From Calothrix sp. HK-06 (GTDB lineage: Bacteria > Cyanobacteriota > Cyanobacteriia > Cyanobacteriales > Nostocaceae): a stretch of DNA of 55,992 nt. Positions 1 through 55,992 of this stretch are shown here, one piece after another. Made by a program: the position numbers and the translations under genes. The stretch lies in NCBI RefSeq assembly GCF_001904745.1, contig NZ_MRCD01000061.1, positions 1-55,992 of the forward strand, in the 5' to 3' direction. Each line of letters opens with the position of its first letter. The first letter of the stretch is position 1. Under the pieces are notes generated by a model. The model did no database searches, was not told where the DNA came from, and saw nothing but the letters and a program-made list of their open reading frames with translations.

Positions 1-24
1 CATATATTTACTGGGTATGAAATC

Positions 25-519
25 ATGCCACGCATCTTCGACAACATCGACTTACAACTGCTTCCCACTCTACGAGACACCCTCAAACTCTTGTACCGTG
101 CAGATTTTTATGTTGGCTACTTCAATCTCAAAGGATGGCGTAAACTAGACGATTTAATCGAGCAATACATCGGTGGGGAAACTTCTCGTTGTCGTTTATT
201 AGTAGGAATGCAAAATTTACCCAGTGATGAGGTACATACAGCATTTACTCTTGGTACAAGTGAAGGGCGCCTTGATAATAGCACCATAATTTGTTCCAAA
301 AAGAAAATTGCGGCTGAGTTTAACCCTCTTTTGTCACCGAAGAACTACTAAAAGCTATAGATGATATTTACCGCTACCCATTAAGACAATCTGCAATTGA
401 TACTTTAAATCGTCAATTAAGAAGCGGTATAAGTAACCAACAATTAGCTGAGTTAGTAGTTGCCCTACGTATAGATGACCGTTTATGCATCGTCAGTGAA
501 GAAATTCAGAAGCGAGAAC
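25..519 (+). pseudogene. Remnant of PLD-domain/SNF2-type helicase (N- and C-terminal scraps)
   Basis: The first 108 codons (25-351) look like the N-terminus of cyanobacterial helicases that begin with a phospholipase-D-like domain: MPRIFDNIDL, then ADFYVGYFNLKGW and CRLLVGMQ. Around position 330 the homology moves to another frame (codons from about 330), where an ATG-less open stretch reads EELLKAIDDIYRYPLRQSA and LRIDDRLCIVSEE. I recognise this as the far C-terminus of the same helicase type. Intact proteins of this type are roughly 1,000 residues long, so the whole helicase core is missing. At about 519 the frame runs straight into a YhcG-type nuclease tail (next entry). The domain names are from memory of family sequences; the frame change and loss of the core are seen directly. 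Confidence 0.6.
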
Positions 520-998
520 CTCTGGAAAGAGAAGTTGAAAAAGAGCTTATTAAACACATCACTAAATTTCTTTTAGAATTAGGTGTTGGGTTTGCTTTTG
601 TTGGGCAGCAGTACCCATTAAAAATTGAAGAGGAGGAATTTTATTTAGACTTACTTTTTTATCATACAAAATTACATTGTTTTGTTGTTATCGAGCTTAA
701 AACAGGAGAATTTAAACCTGAATATAGAGGCAAAATTAATTTTTATCTTTCTGCTGTAGATGATTTGCTCAAGTCTGCTCAAGATAACCCATCTATTGGT
801 TTAATTCTATGTGCTAGTAAAGATAATGTAACTGCTGAGTATGCTTTACGGGATGTGAATAAACCTATTAGTATTGCTGAATGGCAAGCTGAACTTACCA
901 AGTCATTACCAAAAGAGTTACAAGCAAAATTACCTACAATCTAACAGTTGGAAGCAGAGTTAGAAGAGGTTTCTATAGAAACTGAAGATGAAGCTTAA
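520..998 (+). pseudogene. YhcG/DUF1016-type PD-(D/E)XK nuclease C-terminal remnant with nonsense codon
   Basis: An open frame with no upstream ATG continues from the helicase scrap and encodes the typical C-terminal domain of DUF1016 (YhcG) proteins: FLLELGVGFAFVGQQYPL, EFYLDLLFYHTKLHCFVVIE, KTGEFKPEYRGKINFYLSAV and EYALRDVNKPI. The D...ELK-type nuclease core (YLDLLFYH...VVIELK) is present. The frame stops at a TAA at 942-944, exactly where the family has Glu in a PTIEQLEAE-like ending. The codons after it (945-998) continue that ending in frame (QLEAELEEV), so this looks like a single GAA-to-TAA change. The N-terminal half of the protein is absent. It is almost certainly non-functional as it stands. 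Confidence 0.65.
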
Positions 999-1388
999 TG
1001 TAGCCCTATTCACAAGCCTACCTTATATAATAACTAGTACCATACCCAATTTACACGTATCTCGGTCAGCATCATACAAATCTGCTTTATAAGAGGGTCT
1101 TTAAAAAAACTTATCCTGATCAAGAAATATTTTTGATGCTGCTTGAGTCACTGTAAACATTCCTTTAAATAACTATAAGCGATAAATATTCTAGTTAATA
1201 GTCATTATAATACTTCATATCTTAAATCTTGACTCCCAATACTTTCTTGTGGGGTGGGCATCCTTACCTGCCCAGATAAAAAATAGATACCCTAGAAAAT
1301 TCATAAAAAATAGGCGCCCGAAATAAAAAGTAGGCGCCCTGTATGAAGAACAGGCAGGATGCCTGTTCCACAGTATAGTAAGACATGC
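999..1388. repeat. Intergenic spacer with short inverted repeats
   Basis: No gene is visible in these 390 bases. The right part holds short repeats typical of cyanobacterial spacers. Two GGCGCC-centred units (AATAGGCGCCCG and AGTAGGCGCCCT) lie about 20 bases apart near 1311-1341. They are followed by an inverted repeat, GGAACAGGCATCC on one arm and AACAGGCAGGATGCCTG on the other, near 1350-1372. A related unit (GGGTGGGCATCC...CTGCCCAG) lies near 1254-1280. The same GGATGCCTG-type unit recurs near 4502. The hairpins sit just downstream of the catalase gene on the minus strand and could end its transcript. Confidence 0.5.
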
Positions 1389-2345
1389 TTATTGTCTGTT
1401 TCGTTTGTCAATCTCTTTTACTACTCCTTCAGATGGCATTGACGAGGCACCAGGTGATGACATGGAAGTAGTATTCATTGAGGGGTCTATTGGTGTACCG
1501 TGCAGACGTGGGTCAACTTGTGGAGGTTGAGGTTCTGGGCCTAGTGGTTGTGGGTTGGCGACATATTCAAATTCACCTTTACCATCCATTGAAGGACCTT
1601 TTGCCCAACGACCTTCTGCACTATCTGTTCCTTCGGAGTGATTCCAGAATTGGTAGGCATATTCACGTTTTTCCAATTGTAATGGGAATGAACTTGGAAC
1701 TGGTGCGTCTTCTAGTCCGTCTGACTTCAAGTCTTCAAGTGCTGCTAACCATTGGTTCTGGTGCATTGTATCGCGCGCAATCATAAATGAAAGCGTGTCT
1801 TTTACACCTGGGTCGTCTGACATTTCATACATTCTTACCGCTTGTAAGCGTCCTTGTGATTCTGCATGAAGGTTCGAGCGGAAGTCAGCCATTAAGTTAC
1901 CACTTGCAATGATGAACCGACCGTTCCAAGGATAACCAACGCTATCTGCTGCTGTGGCACCTAACCCTGAAACAATTAAATGTTGTGGGTTCATTGCCAT
2001 TGCTTCTGCCATGATGACATCACGTGGATTTGTGCCACCCATTACTGCACCTACAACTGGGTCACTCGCTCCATCTTCTTGCACTTTGATAGGCGCCTTA
2101 TCTAGAAGGTGAGCAATCATTGTTGCAAGCATTTCGATATGACCAATTTCTTCAGTACCGATATCTAGCAACATATCGCGATATTTTGCTGGTCCCCGAC
2201 AGTTAAACCCTTGGAATAAATACTGCATCATTACAGTCATTTCTCCAAAAGTTCCACCAATAAGTTCCTGAACCTTCTTTGCATAAACTGCATCTGGCTT
2301 TGTGGGCGGCTTAAAATATTGAAGTTTCTTGGTGTGGTAAAACAT
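1389..2345 (-). CDS. Manganese catalase (ferritin-like)
   Basis: This gene encodes a 318-residue manganese catalase, a di-manganese ferritin-like enzyme that dismutates hydrogen peroxide without haem. Metal-ligand motifs are clear: E35 in GEMTVMMQYLFQ, E66 and H69 in TEEIGHIEM, E162 in SNLHAESQGRL and H195 in RDTMHQNQW. The first three numbers equal those of the Lactobacillus plantarum enzyme (E35, E66, H69, from memory). The last 50 or so residues are Pro/Ser/Met-rich and probably disordered, as in other cyanobacterial members. A purine-rich GGAAGG lies about 9 bases before the ATG. The gene is monocistronic and faces a spacer on both sides. No regulator is next to it. The role, peroxide defence in the cytoplasm, is inferred from the family. 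Confidence 0.93.
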   Translation of the reverse strand: MFYHTKKLQYFKPPTKPDAVYAKKVQELIGGTFGEMTVMMQYLFQGFNCRGPAKYRDMLLDIGTEEIGHIEMLATMIAHLLDKAPIKVQEDGASDPVVGAVMGGTNPRDVIMAEAMAMNPQHLIVSGLGATAADSVGYPWNGRFIIASGNLMADFRSNLHAESQGRLQAVRMYEMSDDPGVKDTLSFMIARDTMHQNQWLAALEDLKSDGLEDAPVPSSFPLQLEKREYAYQFWNHSEGTDSAEGRWAKGPSMDGKGEFEYVANPQPLGPEPQPPQVDPRLHGTPIDPSMNTTSMSSPGASSMPSEGVVKEIDKRNRQ

Positions 2346-2895
2346 TTACGTTGCCTTCCGAATTAAGTTACTACTATACTTGGGCGACATTGGCAGTTAG
2401 TCTTGACTGCTTTCCTGTGGCGCCTTACTCTTCTAGTACACTTCTGATTAGCTTCTACTGCTTCATTCTTCAGTGGGATATGAGAAATACTTTTATTTAA
2501 GCCTTTATACGGAAGTTGGTTTAATTCTTTAACCTACAATGCTAACCCCCCTAGGACTGTCACCCTCTTTCCATTTTGGTCTAATCAGTGCTATCACTCA
2601 CTAGTAAATTAATATACCTAATTTACATTTATACTTGCCGCGCGCTTGCTGTTTTTGTCATGAAATATTATTCGCTACTGTGGTCAGTGACGTTCTGTTT
2701 TTTGTTAGCAGTAACGTTTTACCCCTTATTCCCGTCTTTGCTGTTACGGTCGATGCATCAAAACCGAGTTAGCCACTGGCAACCTATTTCTATTTTGGTA
2801 AACTTGGCGCCGCTATTTGTTATCAAAATGAATTTTTGAATTGGCGCCTAAAATCCCTCCTAACCCCCGCGTGGAAGGGGGGAAAGAGGAGGTTT
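2346..2895. other. Spacer between catalase and DigH-like genes, with CCCCCC/GGGGGG repeat
   Basis: About 550 bases without a convincing gene. An 83-codon frame (2588-2839, plus strand) has no recognisable family, no good ribosome-binding site and a haphazard composition, so I do not call it. Near 2850-2920 there is a C-tract/G-tract repeat (AATCCCTCCTAACCCC...AAGGGGG) of a type common in Nostocales spacers. It recurs near 35921 and 55959. Its right end forms the last codons of the minus-strand gene that follows. Confidence 0.5.
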
Positions 2896-4476: not shown

Positions 4477-4564
4477 CCACAATAAAATACATCCACAGGC
4501 GAGGATGCCTGTGCCACAAATCACACCTTATGATTTTGACAAATTTATTACTAGATAAACATAA

Positions 4565-7672: not shown

Positions 7673-7673
7673 C

Positions 7674-12885: not shown

Positions 12886-14388
12886 ATGTCGTATGACCGC
12901 TTTGATGTAATTATTATTGGTTCAGGTATCGGCGCCTTGGTAACAGCGACTCAATTAGCCGTAAAAGGTGCGTCTGTACTTGTTTTGGAACGCTACATTA
13001 TACCTGGTGGAAGTGCAGGTTACTTTGAACGCGAAGGATATAAATTTGATGTAGGCGCCTCAATGATTTTTGGTTTTGGGCAAAAAGGTACTACAAATTT
13101 ACTAACCCGCGCGCTAGATGCAGTTAATGTCAGCCTTGAAACAATTCCAGATAGAGTACAAATACACTATCATTTACCCAATAATTTAAACGTCAAGGTA
13201 GATAGAGATTATCAAACATTTTTAGAAAATATTACGGCATATTTTCCTCACGAACGTTTAGGAATTCGCCGTTTTTATGATGAATGTTGGAAAGTATTTA
13301 ACTATCTCAACAGCATGGACTTGCTATCGTTGGAAGAACCTCGCTACTTGCTACGAACGTTTTTGCAGCATCCAAAGTCATGTTTGGGTTTAGCAAAATA
13401 TTTACCTGTCAACGCTTACGATATTGCGCGGAAATATATCAAAGACCCTGAATTATTAAGGTTTATCGATATGGAATGTTACTGTTGGTCGGTTGTACCA
13501 GCAGATATGACACCAATGATTAATGCAGGAATGGTTTTTTCAGACCGTCATTATGGTGGAGTGAATTATCCTAAAGGTGGTGTTGGGAAAATTGCATTAT
13601 CGCTTGTTGAAGGTTTAGAAAAAGCTGGTGGAAAAATTATTACGTGCCAGCACGTCACAAAAATATTGGTTGAAAAGGGTCGTGCTGTTGGTGTCAAACT
13701 AGCTTCAGGTGATGTTTTTCGTGCTTCTACAATTGTCTCGAATGCGACTCGTTGGGATACCTTTGGTAAGTTGCTTACTCAAGAAGAAATACCAATAAAT
13801 GAAAATAAGTGGCAACAAAGGTACCAAAAATCTCCTAGCTTTTTAAGTTTACATATGGGAGTGAAAGCGGAGATTTTAACTGATAATACAGAATGTCACC
13901 ATATTTTGCTTGAAAATTGGCAAAATATGGCTGAACAAGAAGGAACAATCTTTGTTTCCATACCCACATTACTAGACCCAGATTTGGCACCACACGGTTA
14001 TCATATTATTCACGCTTTTACACCACACTGGTTAAACGAATGGGATAAATTATTACAATCAGACTACGAAGCACGTAAAGAAGCCGCAGCAGATAGGATA
14101 ATTACAAGATTAGAGAAAATTTTTCCAGGACTTGATGCTTCTTTAGATTACCTAGAAATTGGAACACCTCGTACTCATCGCCGTTTTCTAGGACGTTCTG
14201 ATGGTACGTATGGGCCAATACCACGTCGCAAATTGCCAGGACTACTGGGTATGCCATTCAATCGTACAGCAGTACCCGGGCTTTATTGTGTAGGAGACAG
14301 CACTTTTCCTGGTCAAGGTTTAAACGCAGTCGCTTTTTCTGGATTTGCTTGCGCGCATCGCATTGGTGTAGATTTGCGATTGGGGTAA
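12886..14388 (+). CDS. crtH: Cis-carotene isomerase CrtH (CRTISO)
   Basis: A 500-residue FAD-dependent enzyme that isomerises poly-cis-lycopene (prolycopene) to all-trans lycopene, supplying the cyclases that make beta-carotene. The dinucleotide-binding fold is at residues 8-46 ([18 protein letters not shown]...[15 protein letters not shown]). Typical CrtH features include [32 protein letters not shown] and the C-terminal FAD motif [20 protein letters not shown]. Length fits the family. It is monocistronic with a promoter candidate upstream. A carotene ketolase gene lies at 44.1 kb but is not linked in an operon. Confidence 0.92.
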
Positions 14389-14640
14389 GCAAAAAGTGTG
14401 TAGTAATTTATTTGCAACGAATTTCAATAAAAATACTTATTAAGATAGATGACAATTTGTAATAGGTATTTGGGATCACTTTACACATGCGACTATTATG
14501 ATGTTATATTATAAAGAATGCTTGAATATAAGCATATATACGGTGTTTAGTGTGTTCCCATTTGTTTTAAGTGTCTAGGCAATTATGGCTAGTTAGTTTG
14601 TAATAAGCAAACTAAAATTAATTACGTAGGGCACAACTTT

Positions 14641-14670
14641 CACCGCTTTGTTTAGTTCAAACTAGCGGTG
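14641..14670. terminator. Hairpin after purT
   Basis: CACCGCT (14641-14647) pairs with AGCGGTG (14664-14670) across a 16-base loop, just past the purT stop. No T-run follows on the minus strand, whereas TTTAGTTTT follows on the plus strand. The hairpin may serve either strand. Confidence 0.4.
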
Positions 14671-14677
14671 TTTAGTT

Positions 14678-15853
14678 TTATGTATCCGTAATTTTGATTA
14701 GACTTGCTGCTTTCGTGGCTTTTGCGCGTGCATCTTGAACATTATCAGCTCTAGCTAAAGCAACTCCCATGCGACGATAAGGATGTGCAGTTGGTTTACC
14801 AAAAAGTTTGATATCTACGTTTGGTTCAGATAAAGCTTCGGCAACACCTTCAAAGCAAACCGACTCAGACTTTTCTGACGCTAATATAACAGCGCTAGCA
14901 GAGGCACCGAGTTGTTCTATATTTGGAATAGGTAAACCAAGAATCGCGCGCAGATGCAACTCAAACTCGTTCAGGTTTTGTGAAATCAATGTCACCATAC
15001 CTGTATCATGAGGACGAGGCGAGAGTTCAGAGAAAATAACTTCGTCTTTAGTGATAAAAAACTCAACACCAAAAATTCCGGCGCCACCAAGTTCATCAGT
15101 CACTTTTTTAGCTATTTCTTGCGCTGCGGTAACTTTGTCTTCAGAAATATCAGCAGGTTGCCACGACTCTTGATAGTCACCACGTTCTTGACGATGACCA
15201 ATTGGCACACAGTAAATAGTAGGCGCCTGCCATTGTTTAATGGTAAGTAAGGTAATTTCGATATCAAAGTCAATAAATTCTTCGACAATTACCTTTTGAC
15301 TATCACCCCGCGAACCTGCAATAGCGTAATTCCAGGCTTTCTCAACATCGGTTTTATCATTAACAACCGACTGTCCCTTCCCAGAAGATGACATTACAGG
15401 TTTGACGACATTAGGAAACCCAATAGTATCAGATACAGCAATTAACTCTTCTAATGTTAAAGCATAAGCATATTTTGCAGTTCTTACACCTAACTTCGTA
15501 TGAGCTAGTTCACGTATTCTATCGCGATTCATTGTGTAATTTGTAGCTGCGGCTGTTGGAATAACCGTAATTCCACGCTGTTCAAATTCGACTAATTTCT
15601 CAGTTCTAATAGCCTCTATTTCTGGAATAATAAAATCAGGTTTGTGCTTATTAACAACCGCTTCTAAATCATCGGCACTCAGCATCGATATAACTTCACA
15701 CGCGTTACTCACTTGCATCGCAGGCGCCGACTCGTAGCGGTCAACAGCTATTATATAGTTACCAAGTCTTTGTGCAGCAATTACAAACTCTTTACCTAGT
15801 TCTCCTGAACCAAGTAACATCAACTTTTTGGGCAACTTAATCGAAGTATTCAT
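14678..15853 (-). CDS. purT: Formate-dependent phosphoribosylglycinamide formyltransferase PurT
   Basis: An ATP-grasp enzyme of purine synthesis that formylates GAR using formate and ATP, as an alternative to folate-dependent PurN. The start KLMLLGSGELGKEFVIAAQRLG is diagnostic, followed by the ATP-grasp core (GFPNVVKPVMSSSGKGQSVV, KVIVEEFIDFDIEITLLTI) and FFITKDEVIFSELSPRPHDTG. The open frame extends upstream to 15919, but the family start is MNTSIKLPKKLMLLG, with its ATG at 15851-15853. About 390 residues is normal. It sits about 100 bases from the macrodomain gene on the same strand. Confidence 0.93.
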   Translation of the reverse strand: MNTSIKLPKKLMLLGSGELGKEFVIAAQRLGNYIIAVDRYESAPAMQVSNACEVISMLSADDLEAVVNKHKPDFIIPEIEAIRTEKLVEFEQRGITVIPTAAATNYTMNRDRIRELAHTKLGVRTAKYAYALTLEELIAVSDTIGFPNVVKPVMSSSGKGQSVVNDKTDVEKAWNYAIAGSRGDSQKVIVEEFIDFDIEITLLTIKQWQAPTIYCVPIGHRQERGDYQESWQPADISEDKVTAAQEIAKKVTDELGGAGIFGVEFFITKDEVIFSELSPRPHDTGMVTLISQNLNEFELHLRAILGLPIPNIEQLGASASAVILASEKSESVCFEGVAEALSEPNVDIKLFGKPTAHPYRRMGVALARADNVQDARAKATKAASLIKITDT

Positions 15854-15957
15854 AGGCGCCAATTGTTCATAATCATCTACGAGTGACATTAAATCAATAG
15901 AGCGCGCGCTTAAGCACAAAATATATATGATTATTTACATAATATAAAACAGTGTTT

Positions 15958-16485
15958 TCATATTTTAATTTTTTTAATTACTTTTAGATAACAATCATAA
16001 GCCTTTTGACCAAATGTAACAAAAATGACCTGAGAGAGTGAATGATTAGATTCGAGAAACTTGCTTGTCTCTGCTACAGCAATTTTTGCCGCACGCTCCA
16101 TTGGGAAGCGATAGGCGCCTGTACTAATTGCAGGAAAAGCGATAGTTTTAATTTCGTACTCTGTTGCTAATTCCAAACTGCGAAGGTAACAGCTTGCTAA
16201 AAGTTCATCTTCGTTATGGTTTCCACCTTGCCAGACTGGGCCAACAGTGTGAATTATCCATTTCGCTGGTAATTTATATCCTTTCGTAATTTTGGCGTTA
16301 CCTGCTTTACAACCGTTGAGTTTTCGACATTCTGTTAGTAACTCACTTCCTGCTGCTTTGTGAATGGCGCCATCAACTCCACCCCCACCAAGTAAAGAAA
16401 TATTCGCTGCATTTACTATTGCGTCTACTTCTAACTGTGTAATATTACCTTGAACAAGTATGATACGCTCTTGATGTGAAATCAT
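15958..16485 (-). CDS. Macrodomain protein (YmdB-type ADP-ribose hydrolase)
   Basis: A 175-residue single macrodomain of the MacroD/YmdB class, which removes ADP-ribose from proteins or nucleic acids or deacetylates O-acetyl-ADP-ribose. Key features are [21 protein letters not shown] (Asn25, Asn28), [14 protein letters not shown] (Asp38) and [13 protein letters not shown]. It may be cotranscribed with purT, about 100 bases downstream on the same strand. KptA, in the same window, makes an ADP-ribose phosphate, which macrodomain proteins can bind, but the genes are 9 kb apart. Confidence 0.92.
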
Positions 16486-16510
16486 TGTATTTATATCTTT
16501 TTATAATCTA

Positions 16511-16723
16511 ATGATGCCTAGAAGTGTAAGTTACCACGACAAACTAATTCAAGACCTAAAAGACCCTTTGGAAGCAACAGCTTATATTGAAGTAGCTTTG
16601 GAAGAGAATGAACCTAAATTTTTAAGTAAAGCAATTAAAAATGTAATTGAGGCACAAGTGGGATTGAGCATCTTCCGTTATCTGCCGAATGCTTGGTTAT
16701 GGTGCGTGACGCTGATTCGTTAA
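16511..16723 (+). pseudogene. Truncated HigA-like antitoxin remnant
   Basis: The first 45 residues (SYHDKLIQDLKDPLEATAYIEVAL, EENEPKFLSKAIKNVIEAQ) match the N-terminus of the putative addiction-module antidote family (HigA-like, XRE fold). After VIEAQVG the protein should continue into the helix-turn-helix but reads LSIFRYLPNAWLWCVTLIR and stops, which looks like a frameshift or deletion. No toxin gene of the HigB/RelE type precedes it. It starts 25 bases from the divergent macrodomain gene. Confidence 0.65.
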
Positions 16724-16800
16724 AAAATCAGTAAAATAGCTTTTAATTTGTTTGCTTAGTTAATAAAATAACCAGTAGACCCAAATCGCAAAACTCGCTA

Positions 16801-18387
16801 ATGGATTGGATTACCGTACTGCGATGGCTTCAATCTGATTTTATTAACAGGTTATCATCTGGTTCGCTGCTGCATTGTCCCAATGATGGACAGCATAGCG
16901 AGTTGACAAAAATTGATGGAACTCGATTAAATTCTCTGCGGAATTTTTGTTGGAGAATGGCAGAGAAGTATAAGCGAGTGTCTCCTGTTCGTGATGTTTT
17001 TACAAGTTTTTTAAAAGGTAAGCTGGGTGAAGAGCTTGTCAAGGAACGACTTGCGGGTTTTATTACTGAGGTGGACTACGAGCAGCATTTGGGTGGAGAT
17101 GGGAATGTTGATTTTACTTTGACTGCTAACCCCTTGATTGGTGTTGAGGTAAAATCACGTTGTGGTAGCTTTGATACGGTGAAGTGGTCGGTAACTTCGG
17201 AAGAAGTCGCAAAAAATGCGGTCATTGTCTGTGTTTTGATTCAAGAGAAAATTAACGAGGCACAGTCAGAATATAATTTGGTGTTAGCTGGGTTTTTACC
17301 GACTGCGATGATTAAGCTCAAAACTGGGCGAATTTCATTTGGTATCCAACAGTTGATGTATGGTGGTGGTTTGGTATGTTATCTAGAACAGTTACTTTCA
17401 AATTCTGGCTCTAGTTTAGCGAGCTATCACTCTAACCGTGATAAGTTACCTGTTTATCAATATATGTCTAGTGGCAAACAGGGTAAGTACGAACACGAAT
17501 CAGATTCACAGCATAGTTCAGAATCTTTAGTGCATTTGTACATCCAAAATGGTGATGATAGTTTTCAGCGTGCGAATTATGAAGCGGCAATTATTGCTTA
17601 TAACGGCGCCTTAAAAATAGATGCTAATAATGCTGAGGTTTATTATAAGATTGCTGCGGCAAAGTATCAATTTGGGGATTATAAAGCTGCCATTTACAGC
17701 TGTCAGCAAGCGGTTAATATAAATCCGAACTATTTAAAAGCTTATCAGAGAAGTGGATTGGCACGTTATCAAATTGGAGATTGTGAAGGTGCCATTGTAG
17801 ATTTTACTCAAGCTATTCGTATTAATCCATACGATGCTTTTGCGTATCTTAACCGTGCTTATGCGCGTTCACATCTTGGAGATAATCAAGGCGCCATTGA
17901 AGATTATACGCAAGCCATCAAATTAAATCCAAATGCCAATAGTAGTTTGCCAGCAGAAATAACTCTAATTACGACAACAGAAGTAACTCTTAATACCTCA
18001 GAAGAATTTAAAATCCGTGGTAATTCTCGCTATGAAGTCGGTGACTATACTGGAGCAGTCGCTGATTATACTGAAGCTATTAAGCTTAATATCAGTGATG
18101 CTGATGCTTACTTTAACCGTGCAAACGCAAAATATGAGAATGGTGATTTTAGAGGCGCCGTTGAAGATTACACGCAAGTTATTAAAATTAATCCCTCAGA
18201 TGCGGAAGCTTATTTTTATCGCGGTGATGTGAATAGTCAGTTAGGTGATAAGCAAGCTGCTGTAGAAGATTTTAACAATGCAGTATATCTGTATTACAGT
18301 GAAGGTAAGTTGGTTGAATATAGAAACGCGCGTGAGCGAATTTTAGATATAGAAATCGAAACATCTATAGATAGTTTAAATTTCTAG
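16801..18387 (+). CDS. Nuclease-like N-terminal domain fused to TPR repeats
   Basis: A 528-residue protein. Residues about 1-200 look like a PD-(D/E)XK fold: VFTSFLKGKLGEELVKERL (helix with Glu), then HLGGDGNVDFTLTANPLIGVEVKSRCGS, which supplies the D...ExK pattern. Residues about 240-510 are TPR units (for example GDDSFQRANYEAAIIAYNGAL, YLNRAYARSHLGDNQGAIED, YFNRANAKYENGDFRGAVED), six or seven in all. A Thr/Glu-rich linker near residue 380 splits them into two blocks. No signal peptide is seen. The nuclease assignment is my inference from one motif and its context. A DNA-maintenance or defence role would fit, but a structural role cannot be excluded. Confidence 0.75.
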   Translation: MDWITVLRWLQSDFINRLSSGSLLHCPNDGQHSELTKIDGTRLNSLRNFCWRMAEKYKRVSPVRDVFTSFLKGKLGEELVKERLAGFITEVDYEQHLGGDGNVDFTLTANPLIGVEVKSRCGSFDTVKWSVTSEEVAKNAVIVCVLIQEKINEAQSEYNLVLAGFLPTAMIKLKTGRISFGIQQLMYGGGLVCYLEQLLSNSGSSLASYHSNRDKLPVYQYMSSGKQGKYEHESDSQHSSESLVHLYIQNGDDSFQRANYEAAIIAYNGALKIDANNAEVYYKIAAAKYQFGDYKAAIYSCQQAVNINPNYLKAYQRSGLARYQIGDCEGAIVDFTQAIRINPYDAFAYLNRAYARSHLGDNQGAIEDYTQAIKLNPNANSSLPAEITLITTTEVTLNTSEEFKIRGNSRYEVGDYTGAVADYTEAIKLNISDADAYFNRANAKYENGDFRGAVEDYTQVIKINPSDAEAYFYRGDVNSQLGDKQAAVEDFNNAVYLYYSEGKLVEYRNARERILDIEIETSIDSLNF

Positions 18388-18451
18388 TAGGTTGGGTGGA
18401 GGAACCGAACCCAACATAAACCTTGTTGAATGTTGGGTTTCACCTAACCTA
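18388..18451. repeat. GTTGGGT/ACCCAAC inverted repeats between convergent genes
   Basis: The spacer consists almost entirely of a nested inverted repeat: TAGGTTGGGT, GAACCCAACAT, ATGTTGGGTTTC and ACCTAACCTA. It is a typical cyanobacterial spacer repeat and a likely bidirectional terminator for the TPR gene and the adaptor gene. A relative lies near 44080-44115. Confidence 0.7.
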
Positions 18452-20200
18452 CTAAAGTTCTATTTTTACAGAGGCAGGAGTTCCTGGTGTAATGAGTAAC
18501 CTATATTTACCTAATGTTTTAGGGTCAAATGAAATTTTCACAGGTGGACGCAGGTGATTATATTGAGCTTTAGAAGGTGGTAGTACAGATTGCACTTTGC
18601 CTGTAAAGGTTTTATCTGTTAAAGCTTTGAGTTGAATTTGCACTGACTGTCCTGGTTTAATTTTTTTTAGTTGTTCTTCTTCAAAGTCAGCAGCTATCCA
18701 AGGTTTTTGCGGTACAAGCGACATTAAAGTTTGTCCTGGTTCAACTTTTTGTCCAGCTTGTGTGCGCTTAATATTGATTTGCCCATTGTTGGGAGCAGTT
18801 ATTTTGGTATAGTAAAGCTGATACTCCGCGTTTTTTAATTGCGTTTGAGCTTGCTTTAGTCCAGTTTGTGCCGTTTTTAAGTAGATTTGACTTTTTTCGT
18901 AGTCTAAAACCAGTGACTCTGTTTCTGCTTGCTGTGTGACTACTTGTTTTTGTGTTGTTAAACGTGTAATAGCTTTGTTTTGTTGCTCTTGTTTTGCTGC
19001 AAATTGTTTCTCTAGCTCAATAACAGCTTTTTGATGGTCTACTTTTAATTTTTCAAGTTTTTGCTGGTTCGCTTTCAATTCGTCAGCTTGTAATTTTTCG
19101 TCTTTTCGCTGGTCAGCTTGTAATTTTTCAAGTTTTTGCTGGTCGCTTGATTTTGATGTTTGAACTTGATTTGATTTTTTCTTTAATTTAGCTTGGGCTT
19201 CCAGTACTTTTTTACTGTCTTGCTCTATTTCGTGCTGTAACTTGGTTTGTTCTTCTTGCCTTTTTTTACTGTCCTCTTGCCTTTTCTGCTGTGATTTGGC
19301 TTGCTTATCTAGTATTTTATTACTATCTAACTCCAATTTTTGCTGTAATTTAGCTTTTGCTTCTTGAGAGCTTTCACGAGCATCTTTTACTTTCTGTTGC
19401 GCTGACTTTATTTGTCCATCTAGATAGTTTTGCTGTGCTGTTGTTAATTTTGTTCGTGCAAGTCTGACTTTTTCGATTGAGGAATTATGTTGTTTGAATA
19501 GATTGTCATACTTGGTTCTAGAGTCTTGAAGGATTTTTAGGGGTGTATTTCCTGATTGGTGGAGCTTGACAAAATGCTCGTAATCAAGTTCGGCTTTAGC
19601 AAAAGCTGCAAAAACAGGCTTTAACTCAGATTGAGCAGCTTTCAGTTGTGAGCGTGCTGCAACTACTGCCGCGTCATTCTTACCTAGTATTTGTATTTTC
19701 GATTGATTTTTGATTTTGGCTTTTGCTGTATCTCGGTTTGTTGTAGCTTTTTTAACTTGCTGTTGAGCTTGTTCTAAACTTATTTGGGCTTGTTTAACTT
19801 TGGCTTGATATTCTAAGGGGTTCAGTTTGACTAAAACTGAACCTTTTTTGACGACCTGATTTTCGGTGGCAGTGACGCTGACTACTTGACCGGGAATTCT
19901 TGTATTAACTGCATATGTATCTGTAGCTACATAGGCTCTATCAGTAACTTCGTGAGTTAAAGCATATTGCCACCGAACGGCGCCTCCAATTAAAACGGCA
20001 ACGGCGCTAGTAGAAAGTAAACTTATAAGCATTAGCTTACGTGACTTCGGCTTCGATAATACTTGTAGATGCGATATTTCTTGAGGATGGACAGCAAGCA
20101 CACCTCGCTCTGCAACAACGATTTGAGAGTTGGAGGTGTTAGTTATGCTTTGGCTTGGATCTGCTTGTTCTACATTACCCGAAGAATCAGAGTACTCCAT
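18452..20200 (-). CDS. HlyD/EmrA-type membrane fusion protein with very long coiled coil
   Basis: A periplasmic adaptor for an export pump. It has a cytoplasmic N-terminus, one transmembrane segment (LMLISLLSTSAVAVLIGGAV), a half lipoyl motif (VNTRIPGQVVSVTATENQVV), a long helical hairpin, the second lipoyl half (KITAPNNGQINIKRTQAGQK) and a beta-barrel (PWIAADFEEEQLKKIKPGQS). The hairpin is over 300 residues, far longer than in EmrA, and its middle is made of Gln/Lys/Glu/Asp-rich tandem-like units (QQKLEKLQADQRKDEKLQAD). The ATG at 20198-20200 (MEYSDSSGN) is preferred to the upstream one at 20230. No transporter or TolC gene is adjacent. Confidence 0.88.
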   Translation of the reverse strand: MEYSDSSGNVEQADPSQSITNTSNSQIVVAERGVLAVHPQEISHLQVLSKPKSRKLMLISLLSTSAVAVLIGGAVRWQYALTHEVTDRAYVATDTYAVNTRIPGQVVSVTATENQVVKKGSVLVKLNPLEYQAKVKQAQISLEQAQQQVKKATTNRDTAKAKIKNQSKIQILGKNDAAVVAARSQLKAAQSELKPVFAAFAKAELDYEHFVKLHQSGNTPLKILQDSRTKYDNLFKQHNSSIEKVRLARTKLTTAQQNYLDGQIKSAQQKVKDARESSQEAKAKLQQKLELDSNKILDKQAKSQQKRQEDSKKRQEEQTKLQHEIEQDSKKVLEAQAKLKKKSNQVQTSKSSDQQKLEKLQADQRKDEKLQADELKANQQKLEKLKVDHQKAVIELEKQFAAKQEQQNKAITRLTTQKQVVTQQAETESLVLDYEKSQIYLKTAQTGLKQAQTQLKNAEYQLYYTKITAPNNGQINIKRTQAGQKVEPGQTLMSLVPQKPWIAADFEEEQLKKIKPGQSVQIQLKALTDKTFTGKVQSVLPPSKAQYNHLRPPVKISFDPKTLGKYRLLITPGTPASVKIEL

Positions 20201-20230
20201 TTTTACACCTGATACTATTTCAAAACACAA

Positions 20231-20799
20231 ATTAACCTACGGAGTCCCGAAGGTGGTTCACAACAACAAAGAAGGCATGTGTAAGTAAAAGTACGCATTT
20301 CAAGCTTTTTCAAAGAAAAATAAAGGTTATTAAAGATATTACTATTAATATCTCTACCAAAAAATGAGTATCTCTTGAATAGAGCTAAAGTCTAATTTAA
20401 TTTATGTATTCAGAGAAAAATGCAATTTGAGCGTTAGTTTTACTTTGGCGTTGGGAACACTGTAAATATAGCCAAAATACCAAATATTGACCTGAGTCGT
20501 CTACAACTCCATCTATTAGAACGGTGTTCAGTTCAAGGTGACAAGCTATTTAATTCTTTAAGGAGGCACAAATTAAAATGTCAACAAATCATGATATTTC
20601 CGTAATACAGAGTTAGTTCTTAAGTACTGTTGTATTCATCACGAGTACCCTACTTAAGTAATGACGCTTGGATGAAAGAAAGATTACACTGTGGAGATTG
20701 GTACTTGTTGCTAAAAACAACACTCGTATACATGAAATCAAATAGTTAAACAACCCGTTAAACATTTCTAATTATCAAATCCTATATCAAAAGCTAACT
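20231..20799. other. Divergent spacer of the adaptor and cyclase genes
   Basis: About 570 bases between divergent genes. It contains one micro-ORF with a strong ribosome-binding site (next entry). Otherwise I see AT-rich sequence without clear promoters or hairpins. Confidence 0.4.
20578..20616 (+). CDS. Possible 12-codon leader micro-ORF
   Basis: AAGGAGG at 20560-20566 precedes an ATG at 20578 that opens a 12-codon frame (MSTNHDISVIQS) closed by TAG. The ribosome-binding site is the best in this region, which is odd for such a short frame. After the TAG the same frame continues for 14 codons (FLSTVVFITSTLLK) to a TAA, so it may instead be the decayed start of a lost small gene. It lies 180 bases upstream of the cyclase gene on the same strand. 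Confidence 0.25.
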   Translation: MSTNHDISVIQS

Positions 20800-23382
20800 A
20801 TGTCTGTTGAACAACTTAGTTGCGGTAGTACCGCCGATTTAACAATTGGTGTTGACAATATTAACCGCGACTTGCAGCCAGAAAATGCTGCTGTGGGTGC
20901 CCTTGCTAAACGGCAGGGAACAATTTCTACCTTTTTGGCGCCGCTAACTCAAGACACTTTTAAACAGGTTGTCACGGAGGTTGAGCAGAAGCTAGTGGTT
21001 GTCAATCAAACTCTATCGATGCTTGATTCGCAGGGGTTTGAGACAATCTTGAAAGAGATGTTGCATTCTATCACGCTCAAAACAGGTGAGCTATTGGGGG
21101 CAGACCGAACGACAATATTTTTATTAGATGAAGAAAAGCAAGAGCTTTGGTCTATTGTTGCTGAAGGAGATGGCGCCAGTTCGTTAGAAATTCGGGTTCC
21201 AGCAAATAAAGGTATTGCTGGGGAAGTTGCTACATATAAAAGAGTTATTAATATCCCTTTTGATTTTTATGATGACCCGCGCTCGTATTTCGCGCAGCAA
21301 CAGGAGAAGCGCACGGGGTACCGTACCTACACAATGTTGGCATTGCCATTACTCAACGAGCAAGGACAATTAGTTGCTGTAGTACAGTTGCTAAATAAAT
21401 TAAAACCGCAGCAGCGCGAAACGGCGCCTTTATCAGAGCGAATTGATATGCGCGGGTTTACAGAGGCATCTGAACAACTATTTCAAGAGTTTGCTCTGTC
21501 TATCCGGTTAATTTTAGAATCTTCGCGCTCGTTCTATGTGGCAACACAAAAACAGCGTGCAGCAGCAGCATTGATGAAAGCGATAAAATCACTGAGTCAA
21601 AGCAGTTTAGATTTAGAAGAAACCCTAAAACGGGTAATGGATGAGGCAAAAGAGTTAATGAACGCTGACCGCAGCACGCTGTGGTTATTAGACCGTGAGA
21701 AGAGCGAGCTATGGACAAAAATTTCTCAAGCTAACGGATCAACGAAAGAATTGCGCGTTCCTTTTGGCAAGGGGTTTGTTGGACAAGTTGCTGCCTCTGG
21801 CAAGACTTTAAATATCATGTTCGATTTATATGAACATCCTGACTCGAGTACAGCCAAGCAACTCGACCAACAAAATGGTTATCGTACTTGTAGCTTGTTG
21901 TGTATGCCAGTATTTAACGCTGACCAAGAATTAATAGGGGTTACGCAGTTAGTCAATAAAAAAAAATCGGGAGATTTTCCTAACTATAATCCCGCAGACT
22001 GGCCCAAAGCTCCTGAATGTTTCCAAGCTAGCTTCGACCGTAACGACGAAGAATTTATGGAAGCATTTAATATCCAAGCTGGGGTAGCACTACAAAACGC
22101 GAAGTTGTTCGATACCGTTAAGCAGCAAGAGCAAATGCAGCGAGATATCTTACGCAGTCTTTCTAACGGTGTAATTTCCACCGATAAAGCCGGAAATATT
22201 ATTGCGGCAAACGAAAGTGCTAAAAAGATACTGGGAATTGATACTCTTGACCGCTTAGAAGGAAAAGTTGTTACCGACGTTATTAGTATCAAAAAAGCAG
22301 ATTTTAGTAAGTGGTGTCACGACGCTTTACATGCAGACGATAGAAAGCAAAGCCAGCAATATTACCCAGACCAGACCCTAGTAATGGGTGATAACGAAGA
22401 ACATAGTATTAACTTATCGATTAATTCTATTGCTGATGCTACCGACCATTCGTCAGTTCGAGGCGCCTTGGTAGTTATGGAAGACATCAGCGATGAAAAG
22501 CGTCTCAAGAGTACGATGTACCGCTACATGACACAAGAGTTAGCGGAAGAATTACTAAAACTTGATGATGCGAAGTTAGGAGGAGATAGAAAAGATGTTT
22601 CGATACTATTCTCTGATATTCGCGGATATACGACTTTAACAGAGAACCTCGAAGCTGAAGAAGTCGTGAGTATGTTGAACGAATACTTCGAGTCAATGGT
22701 TGAAGCAGTATTTAAGCATAAAGGCACTCTTGATAAATATATCGGTGATGCGATAATGGCAGTATTTGGTTCACCTTTACCTCTCGAACAACATGCCTGG
22801 ATGGCAGTGCAAACCTCGTTAGAAATGCGTCAACGTTTACGCGAGTTCAACCATCGGCGCCATGCTATCAATAAACCTCGCATTGACATTGGTATAGGTA
22901 TTAACTCTGACACTGTTATTAGCGGTAATATTGGCTCAAGTAAGCGAATGGAATTTACTGCAATTGGCGACGGTGTGAATTTAGGTTCACGTCTAGAAAG
23001 TGTTAGTAAACACTACAGTTGTGACATTATTATTAGTGATAATACTTATAAGCCATGTCAAGACCATGTTTGGGCACGCGAGCTTGATTACATTCGTGTT
23101 AAAGGTAGAAATGAACCAGTCGCAATATACGAACTAGTAGGTTTACGTACTGACCCAGTTGATAGCAAAAGACTAGATTTAATCGAACACTATCATAAAG
23201 GGCGCCATTACTACCTAAATCGTCAATTCAACTTCGCTAAGTCCGAGTTTAATAAAGCCTTAGAACTAAACCCACACGACCATGCAGCAATGCTTCACGT
23301 GCGACGCTGTAACCACTGGTTACAAAGTCCACCTTCAGATGCTGACTGGGACGAAGGTGTTTGGACATTCAAAGACAAATAA
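20800..23382 (+). CDS. cyaB: GAF-GAF-PAS class III adenylate cyclase (CyaB1/CyaB2 type)
   Basis: An 860-residue cAMP-forming enzyme with the layout of Anabaena CyaB1/CyaB2: GAF-A (about 75-245), GAF-B (about 265-435, ending in the NKFDE-like NKKKSGDF...FDRNDEEF), PAS (about 450-570), a cyclase domain (about 595-775) and a C-terminal helical/TPR-like tail. Catalytic residues are in place: metal-binding D606 (ILFSDIRGYTT) and D650 (KYIGDAIMAVFG), and adenine-specifying K646 and T720 (MEFTAIGDG). In the Anabaena enzymes the GAF tandem binds cAMP and activates the enzyme, and sodium modulates it. Soluble, cytoplasmic. It is divergent from the adaptor gene and appears monocistronic. Confidence 0.93.
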   Translation: MSVEQLSCGSTADLTIGVDNINRDLQPENAAVGALAKRQGTISTFLAPLTQDTFKQVVTEVEQKLVVVNQTLSMLDSQGFETILKEMLHSITLKTGELLGADRTTIFLLDEEKQELWSIVAEGDGASSLEIRVPANKGIAGEVATYKRVINIPFDFYDDPRSYFAQQQEKRTGYRTYTMLALPLLNEQGQLVAVVQLLNKLKPQQRETAPLSERIDMRGFTEASEQLFQEFALSIRLILESSRSFYVATQKQRAAAALMKAIKSLSQSSLDLEETLKRVMDEAKELMNADRSTLWLLDREKSELWTKISQANGSTKELRVPFGKGFVGQVAASGKTLNIMFDLYEHPDSSTAKQLDQQNGYRTCSLLCMPVFNADQELIGVTQLVNKKKSGDFPNYNPADWPKAPECFQASFDRNDEEFMEAFNIQAGVALQNAKLFDTVKQQEQMQRDILRSLSNGVISTDKAGNIIAANESAKKILGIDTLDRLEGKVVTDVISIKKADFSKWCHDALHADDRKQSQQYYPDQTLVMGDNEEHSINLSINSIADATDHSSVRGALVVMEDISDEKRLKSTMYRYMTQELAEELLKLDDAKLGGDRKDVSILFSDIRGYTTLTENLEAEEVVSMLNEYFESMVEAVFKHKGTLDKYIGDAIMAVFGSPLPLEQHAWMAVQTSLEMRQRLREFNHRRHAINKPRIDIGIGINSDTVISGNIGSSKRMEFTAIGDGVNLGSRLESVSKHYSCDIIISDNTYKPCQDHVWARELDYIRVKGRNEPVAIYELVGLRTDPVDSKRLDLIEHYHKGRHYYLNRQFNFAKSEFNKALELNPHDHAAMLHVRRCNHWLQSPPSDADWDEGVWTFKDK

Positions 23383-23399
23383 ATTTACATTATCCGTAT

Positions 23400-23428
23400 G
23401 TAGAGACGTTACATGTAACGTTTCTACA
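23400..23428. repeat. GTAGAGACGTTACATGTAACG palindrome
   Basis: An inverted repeat of the ACGTTACATGTAACGT family, with outer arms TAGAGACG/CGTTTCTA (one mismatch), directly after the cyclase stop. It could act as a transcription terminator. It belongs to the same family as 7624 and 34032. Confidence 0.7.
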
Positions 23429-23490
23429 ACTATGACAACGTGTCTTTTGACATCAAACCTTGGCATGTGAGATTTTTCAAATAAAATCTT

Positions 23491-24102
23491 ATGTTGCTTC
23501 TGCCAAACTTAAATAGAAATATAGGCTCGATAATTATCCTAGCTTCCATAATTTCTCCCGCTGCTGCCCACAACATTCAGGTAAAAGGTGATATAGCAGG
23601 TCTTTGGCATGTGGAACCAAACCATAGTCCCAAAGCCGGGGAAACCGCAAGAGCTTGGGTAGCACTGACTCGCAAAGGAGGAAAAATATTACCTCTTAAT
23701 GAAGCAAACTGTAATATGGCAGTTTTCGCAAAACCTCGCAAACCCACTGATAAACCTATCCTTCAACCAACCGTTCAAGCTATCAACGCAGAAAAATATC
23801 AAGGTATTCCCGGCGCCAATATTATTTTTCCTTCAGTAGGTCTTTATCAGTTAGAGCTAGATTGTACTCCCAAGACCGAAAATGATTTTCGGGCGTTCAG
23901 CATGAATTATGATGTTACAGTCGCTACAGGAGAAAAAGCTGTAACACCCTCCCCTCAAGTATCTCCACAACAAGCACAGAAAGTAAATGGCGCCAGTGCT
24001 TCAACAAAGGTGCAGAGAACTAATGTTCTATTAATTGCGTTGCCAGTTGTTATAGGATTGGGTATTGTGGGAACTACTGCGTGGTTTATTAAAAAACGTT
24101 AA
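23491..24102 (+). CDS. Membrane-anchored exported protein, possible histidine-brace metal site
   Basis: A 203-residue protein with a signal peptide ending SPAAA|H, a beta-sandwich-like domain of about 120 residues, a Pro/Ser/Gln linker and a C-terminal membrane anchor (VLLIALPVVIGLGIVGTTAWF, then IKKR). If cleavage is after Ala26, the mature protein begins with His27 and has H40 and H45 shortly after (LWHVEPNHSPKAGE). An N-terminal His plus nearby His is the pattern of copper-binding CopC-like and related proteins. The fold and metal are inferred and I know no named family for certain. It is followed closely by a YnfA-type gene on the same strand. Confidence 0.7.
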   Translation: MLLLPNLNRNIGSIIILASIISPAAAHNIQVKGDIAGLWHVEPNHSPKAGETARAWVALTRKGGKILPLNEANCNMAVFAKPRKPTDKPILQPTVQAINAEKYQGIPGANIIFPSVGLYQLELDCTPKTENDFRAFSMNYDVTVATGEKAVTPSPQVSPQQAQKVNGASASTKVQRTNVLLIALPVVIGLGIVGTTAWFIKKR

Positions 24103-24160
24103 TAATAAGAAATTAACGTAGGGGAGGGAGACGTGACATATTACATCTCTACATTTAATA

Positions 24161-24487
24161 ATGCTAATTAATTCTGTTTTTTATTTCATTATTGCTGGGT
24201 TATGTGAGATAGGTGGAGGTTATCTAGTTTGGCTGTGGTTACGTGAAGGTAAAAGCCCTGTTCTAGCTTTGCTTGGTTCTACATTACTAACTGTGTATGG
24301 GTTTGTTGCGACAAAACAACCAGCTAATTTTGGACGCGCGTATGCTGCATATGGTGGTGTTTTTATTATTCTGTCTATTATATGGGGTTGGAAAGTTGAC
24401 GGAGTGGCGCCGGATAAGTTTGATTTTTTAGGTGCTAGTATTGTACTCATAGGCGTGTTAATCATGATGTACACACCTCGAAACTAG
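24161..24487 (+). CDS. YnfA/UPF0060 small membrane protein
   Basis: A 108-residue protein with four transmembrane segments and the UPF0060 signature: [24 protein letters not shown], then [29 protein letters not shown] and [17 protein letters not shown]. The family is related to small multidrug-resistance transporters; its substrate is unknown. The conserved Glu in the first segment (CEIGG) matches the proton-coupling Glu of that superfamily. A methyltransferase gene starts 13 bases after the stop, so the two are likely cotranscribed. Confidence 0.92.
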
Positions 24488-24500
24488 TAAAGTCATATTC

Positions 24501-25145: not shown

Positions 25146-25202
25146 AAATAGTTGATGTAAGGTTAAGTAACGCGACGCTTGCAACGCACCCCAATATACT
25201 AT

Positions 25203-28601: not shown

Positions 28602-28660
28602 GATTTCACTCGTGCTGTGGGAACTCTAAAAACAGCGAACGCAGCACATGAGGTGAAATA

Positions 28661-42371: not shown

Positions 42372-43271
42372 TTATTCCAACAAAGCTTCTGTCTCCGCTT
42401 CAGTCTCTGGGTCTCCCTCCAACAGCAGCATTAAAGCTTCCATCTCATCCATCGCAGTTTGCAGCTTGGTCATTATCTCCGCTGCAATAATTTCCGGTTC
42501 CGGTAAATTATCCCCTGACTGTAAGCTTTCATCCCGTAACCAGGTAATATCTATATTTTCCCCACGTTTAGATATTTCTTCCCTGGTAAAACGGCGCCCG
42601 GAATCCACTTTCCCCTTCATCGACCCGCGCGCTGTTACCATTAGGGTCATCACCATAAGCTAATTCAAACGGTTTAAAATGCTCCTTGGTTAAAGGAGTG
42701 CGTTTACCAAAAACTGGCATATTGGTTCGCATATCATAGAACCATACCGCTTTTGTATTACCCTTATCACTGGCGCCACGCTGGAAGAATAGCACATTAG
42801 TTTTGACACCTTGGGCGTAAAATATCCCTGTAGGTAATCTCAATATAGTGTGCAGGTTGCATTTATCCATTAAGTCAGCGCGGATGTTACGACCTTGCCC
42901 ATCTTTAAATAATACGTTATCAGGTAATACAACTGCCGCGCGTCCTCCAGGTTTTAACCCTCTATATATATGTTGTAGGAACGCTAGCTGTTTGTTACTA
43001 GTAGGGAATGTAAAGTCCTCGCGGGTTGGTAGTCCACCTTTACCAATTTTTAATTTTGAATTGTTAGAGCCTGAGATTTAATTAATTCCACCATGCAATC
43101 AATTAAAGGACGTGGTGTAAAATATTGTCCGGCGCCAGACTTTTTCTCGGATGCATTGCGTTCTAATAAATCCTCGTATAAATCACCCAACCCCTCATAT
43201 GACGCTGAGTACCAGTCCAACTCATCAATACTTGTTACCAACTTTTTTAGTATGCGCGGTTGCCATTGCAA
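42372..43271 (-). pseudogene. hsdM: Gutted type I DNA methyltransferase gene (hsdM)
   Basis: Pieces of an N6-adenine methyltransferase of the HsdM type appear in several frames. 43050-43271 has DWYSASYEGLGDLYEDLLER and SGAGQYFTPRPLIDCMVELI (SAM-binding region). After a jump come TSNKQLAFLQHIYRGLKPGG and VLPDNVLFKDGQG (about 42880-43010), then LPTGIFYAQGVKTNVLFFQR (42568-42870) and a C-terminal scrap (42372-42656). The segment that should hold the catalytic NPPF motif is missing. In its place is a spacer-type AATTCAAAATTAAAAATT stretch at about 43050-43070. At least one frameshift lies near 42600. Certainly inactive. Confidence 0.85.
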
Positions 43272-51871: not shown

Positions 51872-51928
51872 TACGCCAATATAATTTTTTACAATTCATA
51901 CGCGGGTATAAATTAAACCATATAACCA

Positions 51929-55681: not shown

Positions 55682-55712
55682 ATTGTTAGGCTTTTAAAGA
55701 GTTAAAGTAATA

Positions 55713-55919
55713 TTACCTTATCTCATAATCAGGATTATACTCTTTAATCGATTCTAAACTATATTCAGGTTCATCTTCTGCATAACATTGATTTAATTTT
55801 TGAAGTGACCAATTTCCCCAACTTTCTCTTTCTTCTGTACCACTTTCTACAGAGATAGGTTCAATTATTTCGATTTTACCGTCTTTCACGATTGCTAAAT
55901 TTTTTGAGGTTGTTATCAT
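55713..55919 (-). CDS. Antitoxin-like protein without visible toxin partner
   Basis: About 68 residues from the ATG at 55917-55919: MITTSKNLAIVKDGKIEIIE, a short AbrB-like beta strand region, then WGNWSLQKLNQCYAEDEPEYS and LESIKEYNPDYEIR. Proteins with this kind of ending (EDEPEYSL..IKE.NP.YE) are, as I recall, antitoxins that precede MazF/PemK-type toxins in cyanobacteria. Here the downstream side is occupied by the end of the WD40 gene, so no toxin is encoded. The longer frame (to 55967) adds 16 residues that come from a spacer repeat and is unlikely to be used. Confidence 0.65.
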   Translation of the reverse strand: MITTSKNLAIVKDGKIEIIEPISVESGTEERESWGNWSLQKLNQCYAEDEPEYSLESIKEYNPDYEIR

Positions 55920-55958
55920 GTTTTCTGATTTATATATATATAGCAATTCTAAATTTAA

Positions 55959-55990
55959 TCCCCCCAACCCCCCTTAATAAGGGGGACTTA
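55959..55990. repeat. CCCCCCAACCCCCC/GGGGG spacer repeat at window edge
   Basis: AATCCCCCCAACCCCCC followed by TTAATAAGGGGGACTTAAG, a copy of the C/G-tract repeat also found at 2850-2920 and 35921-35955. The palindrome CTTAAG closes the window. Confidence 0.7.
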
Positions 55991-55992
55991 AG

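Follow-up and report, generated by a model that had tools for sequence, protein, structure and literature searches.

In the genus of the cyanobacterium Calothrix sp. HK-06, the hexamer GGCGCC takes the place of HIP1 (GCGATCGC), the palindrome first described in 1995 (cited in PMC4390886), as the highly iterated palindrome (HIP). We analyzed a stretch of 55,992 bases of the HK-06 genome (contig NZ_MRCD01000061.1, hereafter the window), other parts of that genome, and the genomes of six congeners. The genus is the Calothrix PCC 7103/Dulcicalothrix group, for which we had seven genomes including that of HK-06 (G000), among them Calothrix PCC 7103 (G292), Calothrix PCC 7716 (G296) and Calothrix NIES-4105 (G293). 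The original prediction, made from the window alone, was that a lineage lacking GATC and HIP1 had acquired a replacement HIP; the counts below show that it has, and the phenomenon was already published for Calothrix PCC 7103. Our work confirms it in another member of the genus, and what is new is that carriage is clade-wide and not sporadic, that an orphan GRCGYC-type methylase is present, that the central C bears a signature, and that the palindrome is kept site by site. We think it reasonably probable that GGCGCC, as the HIP of this genus, is methylated to GGmCGCC by the orphan GRCGYC methylase and is held as a mark by weak selection.

Occurrence of GGCGCC in the window, the genome and the genus

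The window contains 95 GGCGCC sites (about 1.7 per kb, both within open reading frames and outside them, the first at 266 and the last at 55569) with a mean spacing of 588 bases, and the earlier hand count of about 95 sites, one per about 590 bases, was therefore accurate. GGCGCC has the highest count of any hexamer in this DNA, which is 38% G+C, and base composition predicts 2.7 copies. The observed number also exceeds the 43.6 copies expected from a maximal-order Markov model, a figure that is too high, since most occurrences of GGCGC and GCGCC belong to the GGCGCC hexamer itself. HIP1 is absent from the window (count 0), as had been noted from the letters, and GATC occurs only 7 times versus 195 expected. 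The next palindromes above composition are CGCGCG (33 versus 2.7) and GCGCGC (21 versus 2.7).

An excess of this kind could be produced by base composition or by the use of Gly-Ala codon pairs, and the original prediction had named enrichment from such codons in a single frame as the result that would count against it. To place the sites relative to codons we used 35 of the 36 window open reading frames (ORFs) of at least 120 amino acids, one overlapping ORF being dropped. These ORFs contain 69 sites, and phase 0 (Gly-Ala) is the commonest with 33, as codon usage would have it, followed by 16 and 20 in the other two phases. However, 60 synonymous-codon shuffles that kept both protein and codon usage gave a mean of 4.5 and a maximum of 9 GGCGCC, far below the 69 observed, and the 26 sites outside the listed ORFs are denser (2.05 versus 1.59 per kb inside) in DNA that may include small genes. 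The presence of sites in all phases, the shuffles and the 26 sites outside ORFs together indicate a genuine excess that Gly-Ala codons do not account for, and we give composition or codon usage a negligible chance of explaining it.

The abundance of GGCGCC extends to the complete HK-06 genome (9.99 Mb in 243 contigs), which has 15,449 copies (1546 per Mb), 6 copies of the control CCGCGG and 88 copies of HIP1. In 453 kb of this genome the ratio of observed to expected copies (O/E) of GGCGCC is 30, and the avoided words in the same DNA are GATC (124 versus 1608), GGCC (118 versus 663) and GACGTC (3 versus 62 expected). All seven genomes of the genus carry between 7475 and 20380 copies of GGCGCC, approximately 1150–1711 per Mb (genome sizes rounded), along with 1–8 copies of CCGCGG, and the 28 other genomes sampled from the family have 0–283 GGCGCC and 1285–6835 HIP1. 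We found no HIP1 in 395,872 bases from the six congeners, and one copy in six further loci of the genus of about 21 kb each. Mean identity in the stretches aligned with the six congeners ranges from 95% to 80%, which, with carriage by seven of seven genomes, leads us to conclude that the replacement is old and clade-wide, something that would have escaped a survey holding a single genome of this kind. HK-06 shows what is expected of an alternate HIP: an outlying GC-rich palindrome (at 1546 per Mb), HIP1 that is low though relatives carry it, and a candidate methylase gene.

Two other palindromes are also over-represented in the 453 kb of the HK-06 genome, CGCGCG (175 versus 25) and GCGCGC (130 versus 25), an excess of five- to sevenfold, and the pair is 6–19 fold over-represented in stretches from all seven genomes of the genus. 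Two genomes of another family, G008 and G170, have 2493 and 3403 copies of GGCGCC (controls 38 and 13) and have kept HIP1, at 2362 and 15,293 copies.

Constraint on individual sites

We first aligned the window and a second contig (C211, 236 kb) with orthologous stretches, dropping alignments shorter than 400 bases. The ortholog search in the six congeners used positions 12886..32885 of the window (forward strand), which matched in all six, never at full length, and which forms part of the alignments used for the constraint test. In the six relatives GGCGCC was unchanged at 253 of 313, 223 of 250, 192 of 252, 137 of 164, 52 of 74 and 25 of 52 aligned sites, compared with fractions of 0.705, 0.668, 0.585, 0.624, 0.402 and 0.364 for other all-GC hexamers in the same relatives. 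The palindrome is kept in the orthologues of these relatives above other all-GC hexamers; conservation in orthologues was a check that the original prediction had called for. Of the 174 sites that differ in the four near relatives, 114 read GGTGCC or GGCACC, and among the listed differing sites of the two far relatives these words account for only 4 of 22 and 1 of 27.

A larger test, of 525 sites, added contig C178 (453 kb in total) with three to five genomes per column. Alignments shorter than 400 bases were again dropped, as were near-relative alignments below 85% identity (four relatives) and columns with fewer than three genomes or no strict majority base, and the expected number of changes was matched for base, codon position and genome number. 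The four outer bases of GGCGCC had 112 changes versus 277.6 expected, a ratio of 0.40 (bootstrap 0.32–0.49), with transitions at 0.41 and transversions at 0.39 of expectation. This outer ratio was 0.37–0.46 by codon phase and 0.40 outside ORFs (36 sites). It was 1.06 for other all-GC hexamers, 0.96 for NGCGCN, 0.87 for NNCGNN, 0.91 for GGNNCC, 1.24 for CGCGCG, 0.90 for AAGCTT and 1.09 for TTGCAA, and of the 569 hexamers for which 40 or more outer changes are expected, GGCGCC has the second lowest ratio. At the center of the site there were few transversions (8 versus 49.1) and many transitions (201 versus 116.6, a ratio of 1.72), compared with central-transition ratios of 1.02–1.03 for NGCGCN and NNCGNN and 1.21 for other all-GC words. 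A smaller first run, which overlaps this one and is not independent of it, gave 76 outer changes versus 201.2 at 270 sites. The pattern suggests that all bases of the hexamer are constrained and that the third base is 5-methylcytosine (m5C), the deamination of which would raise the rate of C to T.

A different source of the central transitions would be Vsr-like short-patch repair of GGTGCC:GGCGCC mismatches, which would drive T to C and so accumulate GGCGCC. Consistent with this, the 32 columns with a GGTGCC or GGCACC consensus had 25 central transitions versus 5.5 expected. However, Vsr (PF03852) was found in none of the seven genomes of the genus by a search in which the E. coli control matched, and repair of this type leaves the lower change at the four outer bases unexplained; we consider it very improbable.

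The flanks at 1–300 bases on either side of the sites change at 1.00–1.36 of expectation, and protection thus ends at the edge of the hexamer. This bears on the account of Elhai (2015; PMC4390886), who proposed a repair ratchet reading GmeC and explored the possibility that replacement HIPs lack a function. Applied to this genus, mismatch repair reading GmeC would retain mutations that create GGmCGCC, which would then accumulate as a functionless by-product. Such a by-product would explain why GGCGCC is in excess with the other GRCGYC words depleted and why its density is near one per kb. It would also fit the central GGYGCC exchange, which a two-state fit shows to be fast both ways, with a return of 0.16–0.61 per tip versus 0.007–0.03 in other flanks. 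On the other hand, repair guided by a nearby mark should shield neighboring bases alike, and it sits poorly with the equal reduction of outer transitions and transversions and with the small number of present gains described below. Persistence across a whole genus is likewise at odds with that paper's description of exceptional HIPs as sporadic and not found in clades (PMC4390886). We therefore regard the functionless by-product as unlikely, though with more in its favor than the other alternatives, while it may account for the origin of GGCGCC. Site-specific maintenance, probably by weak selection, is the explanation that we favor over it.

The degree to which a site is kept varies with its isolation from other sites. 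With the sites divided into quarters by isolation, the outer ratios, in order from crowded to isolated, were 0.59, 0.39, 0.31 and 0.34, and the central ratios 1.62, 1.19, 1.33 and 0.90; the smaller, overlapping run of 270 sites gave quarters of 0.49, 0.39, 0.40 and 0.24. For all six bases the trend has a one-sided permutation p of 0.0005 (0.0022 adjusted for local rate) and for the outer bases alone a p of 0.011 (adjusted 0.026), and no such trend was found in other all-GC hexamers (p 0.26). Even spacing of the sites is weak, with a coefficient of variation of 0.937 versus 0.996 (225 of 5000 simulations as low), and p is 0.08 for the window alone. The isolation trend is the behavior that a mark would show if it had to lie within a certain distance and became redundant close to its neighbors; it is not obviously expected of a local repair by-product.

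Spacing-dependent keeping would also be compatible with GGCGCC acting as a recombination (Chi-like) or DNA-uptake signal instead of a repair mark, and signals of these kinds are likewise GC-rich, dense and genome-wide. To our knowledge, no Chi or uptake signal is tied to a methylase. The density of GGCGCC in stretches that do not align to the fetched DNA of relatives (1.48 per kb, versus 1.75 where they align) lends no special support to uptake, and we consider a signal of either kind improbable.

Turnover of sites was counted in columns aligned in all five near relatives, whose relationship is star-like, with 81,423 hexamer columns kept. GGCGCC was present in one, two, three, four and five genomes in 11, 11, 23, 57 and 76 columns, respectively, and no other hexamer with 40 or more fully conserved columns has so low a ratio of one-genome to four-genome columns. 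Few sites are therefore arising at present, and many are of long standing.

A GRCGYC-type methylase and its distribution

The original prediction expected a cytosine methylase of NarI/KasI type, specific for GGCGCC. The HK-06 genome has 10 matches to m5C methylases, and a matching methylase is present in all seven genomes of the genus, but by homology it is of the GRCGYC type and not a strict GGCGCC enzyme, none of which was identified. Sequence matches in NCBIfam or the PDB were all to general m5C methylases and were uninformative on specificity, after which methylases linked to endonucleases were used as the reference. The candidate (L005), of the BsaHI/HindV (GRCGYC) type by homology to these, lies at positions 9062–10045 of HK-06 contig C60, and its orthologs in the six congeners share 79.6–82.6% identity with it. 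It is 53–68% identical to the methylases adjoining RE_HindVP (PF09519) endonucleases at 28 of the 30 loci of the order that were used as references. The recognition loop of the genus, YxRR[AG]IFSIDEPSPTIR[GS]VNRP in the seven copies (S in four of them), can be compared with YxRR[AG][IV]FS[IV]xEPSPT[IV]RGVNRP, which matches 27 of the 28 endonuclease-linked copies and leaves one unmatched. The m5C motifs PCQ, ENV and QxRxR, the T[IV] loop, and the conserved R and small residue upstream of it (positions as given in PMC2413257) are present in the HK-06 copy and all six orthologs.

The PF09519 endonuclease was found in none of the seven genomes of the genus, where the controls also had no match, by a search that was positive in 52 of the 291 genomes sampled from the order. 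Words recognized as GRCGYC other than GGCGCC are depleted in the 453 kb (GACGCC and GGCGTC each 14 versus 39.5, GACGTC 3 versus 61.5). M.BsaHI is reported to methylate the central C of GRCGYC (PMC2413257, published in 2008), and GRCGYC is listed, with an asterisked p-value, as an m5C motif of Haemophilus influenzae by RIMS-seq (PMC8565308). PMC4390886 states that for no GRCGYC enzyme is the methylated base known, which differs from the earlier M.BsaHI report. On the basis of these homologies, the orphan BsaHI/HindV-family methylase most likely methylates the central C, giving GGmCGCC. Beside the intact gene is a truncated second methylase of GRCGYC type (positions 8067–8726 of C60), which is 99% identical over 220 amino acids to a full-length copy in NIES-4105 (L034).

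Methylases similar to that of HK-06 (E at most 1e-60) occur in 66 of the 291 genomes of the order, 48 of which also have the endonuclease. Fifteen of the 18 genomes with the methylase as an orphan keep HIP1 (401–836 per Mb) and have 7–64 GGCGCC per Mb. The remaining three, those of HK-06, G059 and G136, have 9–19 HIP1 per Mb and 1546, 2497 and 132 GGCGCC per Mb, respectively. That GGCGCC is densest in the three genomes without HIP1 is as a functionless ratchet would predict for a genome below its set point, with the proviso that two of the three have another main word. Loss of HIP1 and an orphan methylase accompany replacement HIPs without dictating GGCGCC as the word.

G059, which belongs to another family, is the only one of the 291 genomes with a raw GGCGCC density above that of HK-06, and its case for being a separate GGCGCC HIP is only partial. 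In its 3.8 Mb it has 9489 copies of GGCGCC and 74 of HIP1, but at 54% G+C its O/E is 5.7. AGCGCC and GGCGCT are enriched in it as strongly as GGCGCC, indicating a wider CRGCGCYG-like word, and its sampled stretches (L139–L145) are rich in CGGCGCCG/CAGCGCCG, an RGCGCY-like word. Three of four sampled congeners of G059 keep 3110–3424 HIP1, and the fourth, G007, has 134 HIP1 and 343 GGCGCC, with no gain; an independent, recent HIP replacement in G059 is possible. G136 was rejected as a GGCGCC HIP, its enriched word being RCCGGY and its GGCGCC numbering only 14 versus 9.9 in 94 kb. This genome has 81 HIP1 in 6.6 Mb, and in stretches L146–L150 ACCGGC is enriched 12-fold and GCCGGC 9-fold. G136 resembles the Oscillatoria PCC 10802 case of Elhai, with HIP1 nearly gone and ACCGGC/GCCGGC enriched.

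With regard to other features of the window, GGCGCC had been said to occur in dead genes, including remnants of hsdM, hsdR and CheR. This holds for an N6_Mtase (hsdM-like) fragment, a dead gene on the reverse strand at 42571..43074 (Pfam PF02384, profile positions 155–275 of 311, E 2e-34) that has sites at 42593 and 42772. The apparent CheR_N remnant, a domain match at 35205–35516, is real but has no site, and the only trace of hsdR seen is an ORF at 46374–47627 with a weak Helicase_C match. An intact ORF of 1776 amino acids on the forward strand (28661..33991), with matches to protein kinase, AAA, GAF and HATPase domains, has sites at 29841, 30904 and 32735. Elsewhere in the HK-06 genome, on contig C178 (positions 12941–13112 of its stretch L264), a short element of about 50–170 bases has many matches per congener in the four that were searched.

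A proposed two-phase explanation and comparison with known systems

Several observations weigh against GGCGCC being a methylated mark held by weak selection. CGCGCG is unconstrained (outer ratio 1.24) yet has central transitions at 1.62, and the central signature of GGCGCC is strong but not unique. Hexamers scatter widely, and at least 5 of 2208 with at least 20 expected changes have an outer ratio lower than that of GGCGCC. The most crowded quarter contributes most of the isolation trend, and its flanks also change faster (1.16 versus 1.01–1.03). A second type of m5C methylase (L006), of unassigned specificity, is present in all seven genomes as judged by length and score, so that the assignment of GGCGCC to L005 rests on homology. 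The orphan GRCGYC methylase alone gives no enrichment: in a separate collection of 63 loci with an L005 relative, 35 have a detected endonuclease, and among the 28 that do not, only the 6 from the genus are enriched. These 6, all Calothrix/Dulcicalothrix, have GGCGCC at an O/E of 24–39, and the other 57 loci are at 0–2.4. In the turnover counts, sites missing from a single genome (57 columns) far outnumber those confined to one (11), so that either sites are now being lost on balance or our count misses the way in which they are gained. Lastly, by Kimura's formula the ratio of 0.40 corresponds to S = 1.6 or thereabouts and to an approximately fivefold enrichment at balance, not thirtyfold.

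Since weak selection at 0.40 is insufficient for a thirtyfold enrichment, and losses exceed gains, we prefer an explanation in two phases. In two-state fits mutational equilibrium did worse (negative log-likelihood 421.6) than a higher ancestral content (416.3), a difference that carries little weight given an imperfect star tree and heterogeneous sites. The sites would have accumulated in the common ancestor once HIP1 and GATC had disappeared, perhaps by way of a repair ratchet that followed the loss of HIP1. Loss of GATC itself is explained by Elhai (PMC4390886) by a GATC methylase and endonuclease. In the present phase, weak and spacing-dependent selection would keep a methylated mark within about 1 kb of any point. 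The likeliest, putative, use of this mark is in DNA repair, where it would label strands or methylation, in line with what Elhai proposed for HIPs.

With respect to the role of HIPs, Elhai left two readings, a functional signal or a by-product of biased repair. Constraint restricted to the hexamer, the lack of flank protection, the least keeping where sites are crowded, and the reduction of both types of outer change speak for the functional reading. Our results also show that a replacement HIP can endure throughout an entire genus whose aligned parts differ by up to about 20% of their nucleotides. We raise, tentatively and at a little under an even chance, the more general proposal that HIP function follows any GC-rich palindrome bearing an orphan m5C mark, with selection keeping one in reach of every stretch. 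If so, HIPs would constitute a methyl signal across the genome whose sequence can be exchanged, and the GGCGCC genus would be a replacement experiment made by nature, in which function (constraint and spacing dependence) is separated from the sequence that HIP1 happens to have. Our literature search found no paper on selection acting on alternate HIPs. A study from 2018 reportedly dealt with selection on HIP1; it was absent from the results of that search.

The closest known case is the GGCGCC palindrome of Calothrix PCC 7103, which Elhai (2015) reported as an alternate HIP there and in 19 kb of Calothrix D253 (PMC4390886). It goes with loss of HIP1, extreme depletion of GATC, depletion of the other GRCGYC sites and two predicted GRCGYC methylases. 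HK-06 is thus like PCC 7103 and D253 in the hexamer, the loss of HIP1, the depletion of GATC and of other GRCGYC words, and the GRCGYC-type methylases. It differs in the extent of the evidence, which in that paper covered one genome and the 19 kb of D253, and here covers seven of seven members of the genus, site-specific constraint and the central-C signature.

GGCGCC resembles HIP1 in being a GC-rich, genome-wide palindrome of similar density (roughly 500–2500 per Mb for alternate HIPs in PMC4390886) and in the tie to a methylase drawn by Elhai. Unlike HIP1 it has a different sequence without a GATC core and is associated with another methylase. With the BsaHI/HgiDI/HindV family the methylase of the genus shares 53–68% identity and the recognition-loop motif. 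However, BsaHI/HindV systems carry the PF09519 endonuclease, none of which was found in the genus, and at the 57 BsaHI/HindV-type loci of other organisms (35 with the endonuclease) GGCGCC is at 0–2.4 times expectation, whereas in the genus it is enriched thirtyfold.

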